Shown one piece after another: positions 52,514 through 55,755 of a DNA stretch of 64,000 nucleotides. The DNA is taken from NCBI GenBank assembly GCA_021413885.1, contig JAIOPM010000057.1:124001-188000 (forward strand), in the 5' to 3' direction. The position numbers and the translations under genes were made by a program. How positions within the stretch are numbered: position 1 is the first letter of the stretch; every line of letters begins with the position of its first letter. The notes under the pieces were generated by a model. That model did no database searches. It was not told the origin of the DNA and was given only the letters and a program-made list of their open reading frames with translations. Source of the stretch: Planctomycetota bacterium (GTDB lineage: Bacteria; Planctomycetota; UBA1135; GCA-002686595).

Positions 52514-52631
52514 GCGACGCTCATCGGAACACGGGCGCGCCGGGGAGTCCACGCGTCGTTCGCGTCGAACGAGCGCGCTCGGCGCCGTTCGAAGTTCGTG
52601 ATGTGTCGCGAGAGACCGGACGCCGTGGATT

Positions 52632-52637
52632 GACAAT
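52632..52637 (+). promoter_or_regulatory. Candidate near-leaderless -10 element GACAAT
   Basis: GACAAT (four of six to TATAAT) ends 7 nt before the ATG at 52645. No ribosome site is present. Confidence 0.28.
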
Positions 52638-52644
52638 CGCCGCG

Positions 52645-53577
52645 ATGGGTCCGACAAGGGAAGCGGTGTTCTTCCTCGTCGCGCTCCTCGTGGTGTCGTT
52701 GCTCGTGCTCGCGCCGTGGGGCCCGGGCAATCACCTCGAGTTCGAGGCGCGCGTTTTCCGCCGCAGGCGCGAGCTCCTCCCCGCCCGCGTCGCCGACTTG
52801 ATCGACGCCGAGCGGCCTGCGTGGCAATACGGTCACATCGCGGCCGACATCATCAACTTCAAGGCGTTCGGCGGTCACTACAACCACTGCCATCGCTGGA
52901 CGATCGTCGAGTCGATGCTCGGGCTCTCGAAGTCGAAGGCGGAGGAAGCGTTCGTCCTCGGCTACCTCTCCCACCTCGCCGCCGACACGATCGCGCACAA
53001 TCACTTCGTGCCGTATCACCTCGCGCGGTATTCGCGCGGGCACAAGCTCGGTCACGTGTATTGGGAGGCGAACGCCGATCGCTTCGTGTCCGAGGATCGG
53101 TGGCACGCGATCACGGTGCTCAAGTGGGACCATCGGTTGGCGCGGCTCGACGAGCTCGTCAACTCGACCGTGCCGCGCAAGGCGTTGTCGATGGGCGCCA
53201 ACAAGTTGATCTTCAATCACGTGCTGCTGTCGAACGAGCGCAAGCTGTGGCGCAAGAACATCGAACGCTTCCATCCGCGCAATCGACTGCGGCTCGACCG
53301 GAAGTTCCTCGACATGTTCCAACGCGCCGCGGTCGAACGCATCGCGCTCGCGTTGCGTTCGGACGGGCGCGACAAGCTCGCCCACATCGACACCAACGGG
53401 AAGCAGGCGCAGGAACTCGCGCTCACCCTGCGCGCGGCGATCGTCGAACGGTTCCCGCGCGGCAAGGAACGCGACGCCGCGCTGGAGAAGACGGCCGGTG
53501 TCTTCCTCGAAGGGATGCAATCCCCGCCGCCGAAGCCGGCCGGCGGACGCAGCGAAGTGTGGAAGCGCGTCGGTTAG
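52645..53577 (+). CDS. Zinc-dependent phospholipase C-family protein
   Basis: The protein has 310 residues with an N-terminal hydrophobic signal or anchor (about 8-27). The zinc-ligand histidines and acids of the phospholipase C/S1-P1 fold can be recognised: YGHIAADII, FGGHYNHCHRWT, and LGYLSHLAADTIAHNHFVPY, where the H-x3-D-x3-H pattern is typical. The family hydrolyses phospholipid or nucleotide phosphodiesters extracytoplasmically, but many distant members are uncharacterised. The ATG at 52645 gives the better signal sequence than 52603. Its stop codon lies within the left arm of a large inverted repeat. Confidence 0.72.
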   Translation: MGPTREAVFFLVALLVVSLLVLAPWGPGNHLEFEARVFRRRRELLPARVADLIDAERPAWQYGHIAADIINFKAFGGHYNHCHRWTIVESMLGLSKSKAEEAFVLGYLSHLAADTIAHNHFVPYHLARYSRGHKLGHVYWEANADRFVSEDRWHAITVLKWDHRLARLDELVNSTVPRKALSMGANKLIFNHVLLSNERKLWRKNIERFHPRNRLRLDRKFLDMFQRAAVERIALALRSDGRDKLAHIDTNGKQAQELALTLRAAIVERFPRGKERDAALEKTAGVFLEGMQSPPPKPAGGRSEVWKRVG

Positions 53578-53686
53578 CGTACGGAGCCAGCCTCAACTCG
53601 GCCGTTTTCGCGGGGGGGAAGCGCTTGCAGCAACTCCGAGCGTGGGGCCCGCGAAAACGGCCGAGTTGAGGCTGGCTCCGTACGCT
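53576..53686. repeat. Perfect 39-bp inverted repeat (33-nt loop) filling a convergent junction
   Basis: Bases 53576-53614 and 53648-53686 are exact reverse complements over 39 nt, separated by 33 nt. The left arm begins inside the TAG stop of the phospholipase-like gene; the right arm ends 1 nt before the stop codon of the convergent lipoprotein gene at 53688. Such an RNA hairpin would be far more stable than an ordinary terminator. It could be a bidirectional terminator, a dispersed palindromic repeat or a non-autonomous mobile element. No second copy is in this window. No target-site duplication can be recognised. Confidence 0.95.
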
Positions 53687-53687
53687 C

Positions 53688-55634
53688 TTACCCGATCCGG
53701 CACCAACGGACCACGAGGTCGGTCTTGTCGCCGTCCTTGTTGTAGTCCTTGTCTGCCGCGGCCTCGTCCGCGATCCACGCCGCGCCGATGTTGCCGTTGC
53801 CCTCGACGATCGGACGATCCGCGATGTCATTCGCCGTGCCGAGCGAAAGGAAGTTCGAACCGTTGAGCGCGGTGCGCGCCACGATCGTGTCGAGCTTGTC
53901 GCCGTCGCCGTTCCAGTCGGTCTTGTCGGCCGCTTCGCTGATGCGGAAGAAGAGCACGCTGTGGTGGATCGTGATGCCGGCGTTCGCGGCGCTGGTCGCC
54001 ACGCGCGGCCAGAAGAAGTCGAGGTCGGTGGACGAGCCGAAGAGCGAGAGACCCGGCAGCGAATCGCCGGTGTCGCCGTCGTCGTTGCCGAGCGACGAAT
54101 CCGCGGCGCTGCCGAGGTTCTGCGCCCAGACGGACTCTTGGAACGCGATGCGCGCTTGATCGTGCGGCCGGCCTTCACCGAGCCACGTCGTGCCGAAGAA
54201 CAGCGTCGACGAGGACGAGTGATCGGTGACCCACGTCGTCGGACTGGCCGGATCGATCCACGCGAGCAGCTTGTTGTCCGCCGCGTTGCCGTCGTAGTTT
54301 GCATCGTCCTCGGACTCGTCGATCACGGCGAGCAACTTGTCGTTCAAGTCGGTCAAGCCCGACGCGCCGCCCGGCGTCGAATCGGCGACCGCGACCAGGC
54401 GCGTGTCGTCGCGCTCGGGCGCGGTCGGCGTGCCGATCTTCACCCAGCGCACGATCTCGTCGGTGAAGTCACCGTCGTCGTTCAAGTCGCACGCGCCGCC
54501 GCCTTCGTCGGCTTCGTCCGCGATCGTCGCGACCGCGTTCGACGTGCACACGATCTGATCGCGACCGACGAGCCCGGTGTTGACCGGGGGATCGGCGATC
54601 GGATCGGTGTTCCAATCCTTGAAGACCAGGAAGTGCAGGACGTCGTCGGTCGTGTCGGTGTCGGTGTAGGTCGGGCAGTTGAGCGGCTTCCACGTCCCCG
54701 GGAACAACGACGCGTCGTTCAAGCCGGTCAGCGCCGAACCCTCGGCCGCTTCGTTGACCAGGAAGCCGACGATCCAGTTGTCCGCCGCGGTTTGGTTCGC
54801 GCGGAACGGCGTGCTGTCGTCGCGCACCGCGAGCTCGACCGACGCGTACACCGCGGCCGGGTCGGTCGCGTTGAGGATCGCGAGCACGAACCCGTCGGTC
54901 TGATCGCCGTCCGAGTTCAGGTTCTGCGTCTCGACGGTCTCGTCTTCATAGAGGAAGAGCAGACCTTCGTCGTTGCCGAGGATGCGCGGGTGGTGGACGA
55001 ACGCCGCGTCGGCGGCGGTGATCGTCACCGGCGTGACCGGCGCAGTCGGATCGATGTAGGCGAGCGTCGAGTCTCCGTTCGCAAGACCCGCGGTCGAGTC
55101 GCTGCGCGTATAGTAGAGGCGGCCGTCGACTTCGAGCAGGTCGTGATTCGACTCGTCCTCGAGATCGTCGACGAACTCGACGGTCGGCGCCGAGGGGCTC
55201 GACAAGCCCGCACCGGTCGTCGGGTAGTGGCAGAGCACGATGTCGCTGGTGTCCGCGTCGTTGTTCCAGTCGAAGCCGTCGAGGGACTCGTCGACTTCGA
55301 GGTACACGTCGCTGCCGACGACCGCGAAGTCGACCGCGGCGACGCCGAGCACCGTCTCGGCCTTCGACACCATGTTGACGACGACCGCGACCGAGTCCGC
55401 GGTGTCCGCGTCGCCGTTGAGATCGGTGCCGGCACCGATCGTCGATTCGTCGGCTTGGAACACGAGCCACCGACCGTCGACCGCGATGCGTCCGCCGGAA
55501 GTGATCGCCTCGTCGGTCGAGAACGGCGTGAAGATCGTGTCGCCGCCTCCCCCACCGCCTCCGCCGCAAGCGGAGAGCGAACCGAGCACGCACGAGGCGA
55601 AGAAGGTGCGGGTGAGCCAGGACGAGTGATTCAT
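53688..55634 (-). CDS. Lipoprotein with repeated DxNxDxDxxD calcium-type loops
   Basis: The protein has 648 residues. The signal ends in lipobox LSAC (Cys22), followed by eight glycines, a flexible tether. The rest looks like a beta-propeller or repeated beta-sandwich in which at least six loops share the pattern D-x-N-x-D-(G/A)-D-x-x-D: TDLNGDADTAD, FDWNNDADTSD, NLNSDGDQTD, CDLNDDGDFTDE, TDWNGDGDKLD and KDYNKDGDKTD. Each is followed by a strand such as IVRWVKI or LVVRWCRI. The spacing is that of EF-hand-like calcium loops. I do not recognise a named family. The ATG at 55634 is chosen for the lipoprotein signal. A TAGATT box lies 43 nt upstream. Confidence 0.8.
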   Translation of the reverse strand: MNHSSWLTRTFFASCVLGSLSACGGGGGGGGDTIFTPFSTDEAITSGGRIAVDGRWLVFQADESTIGAGTDLNGDADTADSVAVVVNMVSKAETVLGVAAVDFAVVGSDVYLEVDESLDGFDWNNDADTSDIVLCHYPTTGAGLSSPSAPTVEFVDDLEDESNHDLLEVDGRLYYTRSDSTAGLANGDSTLAYIDPTAPVTPVTITAADAAFVHHPRILGNDEGLLFLYEDETVETQNLNSDGDQTDGFVLAILNATDPAAVYASVELAVRDDSTPFRANQTAADNWIVGFLVNEAAEGSALTGLNDASLFPGTWKPLNCPTYTDTDTTDDVLHFLVFKDWNTDPIADPPVNTGLVGRDQIVCTSNAVATIADEADEGGGACDLNDDGDFTDEIVRWVKIGTPTAPERDDTRLVAVADSTPGGASGLTDLNDKLLAVIDESEDDANYDGNAADNKLLAWIDPASPTTWVTDHSSSSTLFFGTTWLGEGRPHDQARIAFQESVWAQNLGSAADSSLGNDDGDTGDSLPGLSLFGSSTDLDFFWPRVATSAANAGITIHHSVLFFRISEAADKTDWNGDGDKLDTIVARTALNGSNFLSLGTANDIADRPIVEGNGNIGAAWIADEAAADKDYNKDGDKTDLVVRWCRIG

Positions 55635-55677
55635 GGGCGCTTCGATCGGCTGAAGACGGGGACGGCGCGAGGTTCCG

Positions 55678-55683
55678 AATCTA
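55678..55683 (-). promoter_or_regulatory. Candidate -10 element TAGATT of the lipoprotein gene
   Basis: TAGATT on the minus strand lies 43 nt before the ATG at 55634. TATTCC is present 17 nt upstream as a weak -35. Confidence 0.38.
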
Positions 55684-55755
55684 ACGCGGTGGCCCCCCTG
55701 GGAATAGCGAACAAGCGCATCCATCGAGCGAGCGTCTCCGCACGCGGACCGAGAT

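Follow-up and report, generated by a model that had tools for sequence, protein, structure and literature searches.

A perfect inverted repeat in a bacterial genome may be a terminator, a source of a small RNA or a part of a mobile element, and the locus described here raises the question of which of these accounts for a long hairpin lying exactly between two convergent genes. The window analysed is a stretch of 64,000 nucleotides from the metagenome-assembled genome (MAG) of an uncultured member of the Planctomycetota (87.6% complete, 62 contigs), which belongs to the family of Pla86 and Pla163.

Results

A perfect hairpin between two convergent stop codons

The two arms of the inverted repeat, at 53576-53614 (+ strand) and 53648-53686 (- strand), are 39 nt long and 100% complementary, and they enclose a spacer of 33 nt (53615-53647, GCGCTTGCAGCAACTCCGAG) that comparison of copies assigns to a recent subfamily. 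These arms and this spacer had been described base for base in the first-pass annotation of the window. No inverted repeat of its class in the 64-kb window exceeds the hairpin in length, and of the 25 longest it alone is perfect; the runner-up has 34 nt at 74%. The annotation had also called for a structure prediction: folded as RNA, the 141-nt stretch with the hairpin reaches -106.2 kcal/mol (z = -10.8), a value that none of 200 shuffles equalled. The upstream gene (52603-53577, + strand) encodes a protein of the zinc-dependent phospholipase C family (PF00882, E=5.5e-15), and its TAG stop codon at 53575-53577 shares 2 nt with the left arm. The convergent gene (53688-55724, - strand, 678 aa) is conserved in three same-genus genomes, its product has no match in a Pfam search, and its TAA stop codon at 53688-53690 begins one base past the right arm. 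The edges of the repeat thus coincide with both stop codons at this junction, as had been noted earlier. A search of the whole window against Rfam gave no match.

A dispersed family of covarying hairpins

Searching the window's own genome, another check that the annotation had proposed, revealed about 34 sites of a 105-bp unit, GTACGGAGCCAGCCTC...GAGGCTGGCTCCGTAC, a copy number that is a lower bound because repeats break the contigs of the MAG. Exact matches to the arm pattern numbered 28 forward and 27 reverse (55), and the reversed control gave 0. The arms come as inverted doublets; those without a close partner stand at a transposase gene on contig C7 or are truncated where a contig stops (C1 start, C56 end). 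Besides older copies, the alignment contains a recent subfamily of 91-97% identity, to which the window copy belongs. Alignment with the family consensus delimits the miniature element proper, GTAC...GTAC, at 53579-53683 (no strand), so that 53579-53614 and 53648-53683 are the element's share of the two arms, and the outer AGC (53576-53578) and GCT (53684-53686) are specific to the site. A search of a plasmid collection gave no match.

The arms covary. Changes on both sides were found in 9 of 35 pairs, 98.8% of the cells are paired, and 55 cells carry a double change against 18.0 in shuffles; when the partner was slid by 1-3 columns, the signal was gone and 32-42% of the cells were paired. One copy (L032:5844-5979) has a partial internal duplication of arm sequence and measures 136 nt instead of the usual ~101, and such palindromes therefore rearrange internally. 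Contigs of the window's genome (C1 start, C56 end) and many contigs of G009, a genome of the same family, end inside repeats, which means that these assemblies are broken and copies undercounted.

Sites without the repeat in related genomes

Three same-genus genomes, two of which (G002 and G003) are closely related, so that they are not fully independent observations, share this gene pair in unchanged order; their stop codons are separated by 31, 31 and 146 bp, and the repeat is missing. It is also missing at the sites L026, L022 (two) and L033 in the relatives compared. This comparison of empty sites, likewise suggested in the annotation, indicates that the window repeat is an insertion, although the empty sites are too diverged, and the gene content too different, for base-exact junctions. 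The G002 empty site reads TGAGC...GCTCGCTCA, and the outer AGC/GCT of the window arms may for this reason come from the target site. As RNA, the G002 site folds with GUGAGC/GCUC pairing but reaches a z of -0.6 only, and the G003 site forms no such stem. At the L022 and L033 junctions, compared with L199-L204, same-genus relatives hold ~3-4 kb of extra genes between the anchor genes; gene loss and repeat insertion thus coincide there.

A transposase gene between the same arms

On contig C7, two arms 1.2 kb apart bound an open reading frame of 363 aa (L034:5174-6265, - strand) whose product matches Y1_Tnp (PF01797, E=5e-7). The arms of this gene form a 30-nt perfect terminal inverted repeat (TIR). 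Residues H60 and H62 (HxH) and Y119 are invariant in 17 homologues of the C7 transposase. With the model for REP-associated tyrosine transposases (NF047646), the protein scores 54.8 bits, below the 80-bit cut-off. Its C-terminal extension holds no Pfam helix-turn-helix (HTH) domain, and one homologue has a sub-threshold match to sigma-70 region 4. A sequence search of the PDB with the transposase gave no match. The left tip of the full-length C7 element reads GTAACGG instead of GTACGG, and because of this the resident element may be partly defective. The C7 gene is the only Y1 gene found by a Pfam profile search of the genome; a protein search adds a second transposase of 49% identity at a contig end (C4:113-1114; genome G000, locus L208), which could be the actual mover of the copies.

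A motif common to element ends across homologues

Homologues of the transposase occur in 29 of the 61 genomes searched, a set that includes the complete genomes of Pla86 (CP036296) and Pla163 (CP036290), and those from a scan of GTDB genomes are mostly from Planctomycetota. Most homologues with readable flanks carry TIRs, whose length ranges from about 15 to more than 50 bp. At the 33 loci whose tips could be read, the TIRs start with the consensus RTAC[GC]G[AT]G[CT]C, in which RTAC was required by the tip search and the later positions alone are independent evidence; the C7 element was left out of this set because of its left tip. Similarity between TIRs shows a weak correlation with that between the transposases (Mantel r=0.24, p=0.004). 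Palindromes in other genomes resemble the ends of resident transposases as well: in G002, the single palindrome that was detected carries the ends seen at the transposase of the same genome; the correspondence is less close in G022; and of two palindromes nested in G009, the inner one is similar to the ends of one transposase present there.

Position of the copies relative to genes

Nearly all copies are intergenic, mostly within ~20 bp of a stop codon, and 29 of 37 stop-codon distances fall between -8 and 17 bp. Around the copies, genes were called by a simple hexamer model, so that boundaries are predicted and not curated; on these calls, 30 junctions occupied by copies divide into 11 convergent, 15 tandem and 4 divergent ones. 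All gene pairs in the same stretches number 45 convergent, 144 tandem and 43 divergent, and convergent junctions are thus enriched for copies. The earlier suggestion that the repeat inserts specifically at gene ends is borne out family-wide as far as the preference for intergenic, stop-proximal sites is concerned; edges at both stop codons, in contrast, are not general.

Discussion

Our results suggest that the repeat in the window is very probably a non-autonomous miniature element (MITE), REPIN-like, derived from the ends of a Y1 (HuH) transposase element of the RAYT/TIRYT type and moved in trans by the C7 transposase. We favor this because the repeat occupies some 34 sites, its arms covary, relatives have empty sites, a transposase gene stands between the same arms and the end motif is conserved among homologues. 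The dispersed palindromic repeat, REP- or MITE-like, that was one of the possibilities raised in the first-pass annotation is thus supported by the copies, the empty sites and the transposase. From sequence comparison we infer mobilisation by the C7 transposase with single-strand chemistry and with palindromes as chosen targets. The two TIRs of a transposase element would have been joined via a short spacer in a unit that lacks the gene, and the C7 transposase would recognise the single-stranded hairpin ends and mobilise copies in trans. These copies would settle in intergenic space, mostly beside stop codons and often near another copy, and some might land inside existing palindromic sequence, for example that of another copy.

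The position of the copies at gene 3' ends, the very stable fold and the compensatory changes in the stem might also be expected of a bidirectional terminator or a 3'-end stabiliser of mRNA, selected via RNA structure, in which case the copies would represent a terminator cassette that had been exapted. We sought a T-run after the hairpin on both strands of the family copies and found none (on average, 2.1 and 1.7 of 8 nt are T); the bidirectional terminator proposed in the annotation is thus unsupported by the sequence, and a canonical one is disfavored because this run is missing. Moreover, four copies lie at divergent junctions, three relatives have the junction of the window without the repeat, the strongly conserved tip sequence is unexpected for a terminator, and the link with a transposase gene would be left unexplained. 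Taken together, we regard an exapted terminator as very improbable. Many copies bracket one gene, and pairs of repeats might therefore be the borders of mobile gene cassettes or composite transposons, an integron-like idea. Clustered copies lie 0.4-3.2 kb apart: 15 distances between neighbours are shorter than 3.5 kb (a count that includes the distance across the C7 transposase element) where 0.8 are expected and 5 were the maximum in 2000 simulations; clustered copies are also more alike than others (0.877 vs 0.807 identity, p=0.001), and for the gene enclosed at L023 the relatives yielded no homologue. In contrast, the genes enclosed at L022 and L025 have homologues in the corresponding position in relatives, whose genomes have no match to the repeat (G001, G003) or a single one elsewhere (G002), and the enclosed genes are unrelated in kind. 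Since these genes keep their place at L022 and L025, the comparison favors local re-insertion rather than cassettes, and we give the cassette explanation hardly any credence.

A further explanation concerns the perfection of the arms rather than the origin of the copies: correction of palindromes by template switching at replication, acting on copies of any origin, might keep the arms perfect in place of fresh transposition. In agreement with this, the variable inner positions of the arms are symmetric even in divergent copies. Flanks also lengthen the palindrome beyond chance, by a mean of 3.9 bp vs 1.2 for cross-paired flanks (p=1e-4), and still by 2.6 bp without the copies L030 and L032; part of this symmetry could come from symmetric stop codons at convergent junctions. 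However, correction leaves the dispersal, the conserved GTAC tips and the association with a transposase unexplained. In addition, the flank extensions of L030 (15 and 19 bp) resemble the tips of an element in degenerate form (gtacggagtcagcg, gtgcggaaccagcg) and are therefore read as one element inside another, that is, as a nested insertion. We consider correction unlikely as the source of the perfect arms, and note that it is compatible with transposition and possibly acts in addition to it.

Nesting of this kind is seen on a larger scale in relatives of the window's genome. In G009, the locus L209 (G009:C98) holds at 1004-1207 a core of 204 bp with 88-nt perfect arms, extending outward to ~280 bp, in which two or three TIR-type hairpins are each nested in the centre of another. 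Both the ~233-bp compound and its ~124-bp inner unit are dispersed in that genome; the nested compound is itself multiplied as one unit. In Pla86 (CP036296), each TIR of the transposase is in its turn a nested palindrome of 156 bp (L071, 1266-1421 and 2528-2683), and about 30 further relatives of ~105 bp are dispersed; since this genome is complete, the nesting is not merely an artefact of MAG assembly. We tentatively propose, as a possibility that falls short of our preferred explanation of the repeat itself, that the HuH transposase of this family prefers the centres of palindromes (loops), those of its own older copies included, and that concentric growth might in this way lead to longer perfect palindromes that multiply as compounds. 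If true, this would provide both a route for the growth of palindromic mobile DNA and a hairpin-loop target rule. To our knowledge, such a rule has yet to be established for enzymes of the RAYT/TIRYT type.

Most knowledge of RAYT/REPIN biology comes from Proteobacteria. The element of this planctomycete appears to be of the TIRtron/REPIN kind, novel in its GTAC rather than GTAG foot. TIRtrons, which encode a TIR-associated tyrosine transposase or TIRYT (PMC3733652), probably correspond to subclass 2.1 of TnpA-REP in PMC6006769. As in the TIRtrons described in the part of PMC3733652 compared, a RAYT-like HuH transposase gene lies between long TIRs, the TIRs belong to dispersed families of moderate abundance that include dimers, and the protein is long, with a C-terminal extension. 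The features by which the TIRtron type is recognised, namely a Y1/HuH transposase with HxH and Tyr, long flanking TIRs and membership of these TIRs in a dispersed family, are all found here. By contrast, our TIRs start with RTAC[GC]G[AT]G[CT]C, and the published GGGGWSAS, which is common and not required according to the part compared, is absent; subclass 2.1, as outlined in PMC6006769, carries a C-terminal HTH (Bac_DnaA_C, HTH_23 or HTH_28), whereas Pfam detected none in our protein; and the planctomycete lineage and the nested compound palindromes differ from the TIRtrons of that account.

REPINs, doublets of REP sequences that form a hairpin (PMC3116915), resemble our element, as far as that article was compared, in having a dispersing unit of two inverted units and a spacer, compensatory changes in the stem, extragenic location and a specific transposase in the genome. 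They differ in their GTAG foot and in their abundance (hundreds of copies in SBW25, about 34 here). Furthermore, the arm in the window's genome has no clear small hairpin of the REPIN kind (z=+0.4), whereas the arms in G022, G009 and G002 have a small one. The palindrome-embedded position and the position at both stop codons have a precedent, since the REP dimers inside palindromes of A. variabilis (GTAG-15), T. roseum (GTAG-23) and H. neapolitanus (CGTC-1) are described in PMC3733652 as repeats within longer palindromes, beside both stops of convergent genes, where the element end can supply the stop codon. Those dimers, in the description compared, belong to another sequence family, and some of our outer palindromes resemble older elements of the type that they enclose, the compound of G009 having multiplied. 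For concentric accretion together with multiplication of the compound, we found no precedent in the parts of the TIRtron and REPIN literature compared. The new aspects are thus the clustering of copies, the palindromic flanks beyond chance and the concentric palindromes in relatives.

For TnpA-REP, the 5' foot tetranucleotide can guide the choice of the cleavage site: in one system, changing it from GTAG to GTAC shifted cleavage to GA/GT sites, and in a second system cleavage was lost with a GTAC foot (PMC8266576). These results give a concrete prediction for the GTAC-footed elements described here. With two transposase genes, about 34 miniature sites, ends that can be read to the base, insertion-free sister species, a family-wide end motif and concentric palindromes, one set of which stands at the transposase of the complete Pla86 genome, the system is a workable one. 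It makes addressable whether HuH elements enter hairpin loops, what brings them to gene ends and whether a GTAC vs GTAG foot serves as cleavage guide.

Finally, many proteins encoded near copies of the repeat (L023_5694-7226, L024_5265-6983, L025_5839-7569, L030_5842-7140 and others) have in common a C-terminal domain of ~140 aa with 30-55% identity, which may be a secretion or surface domain specific to the lineage.
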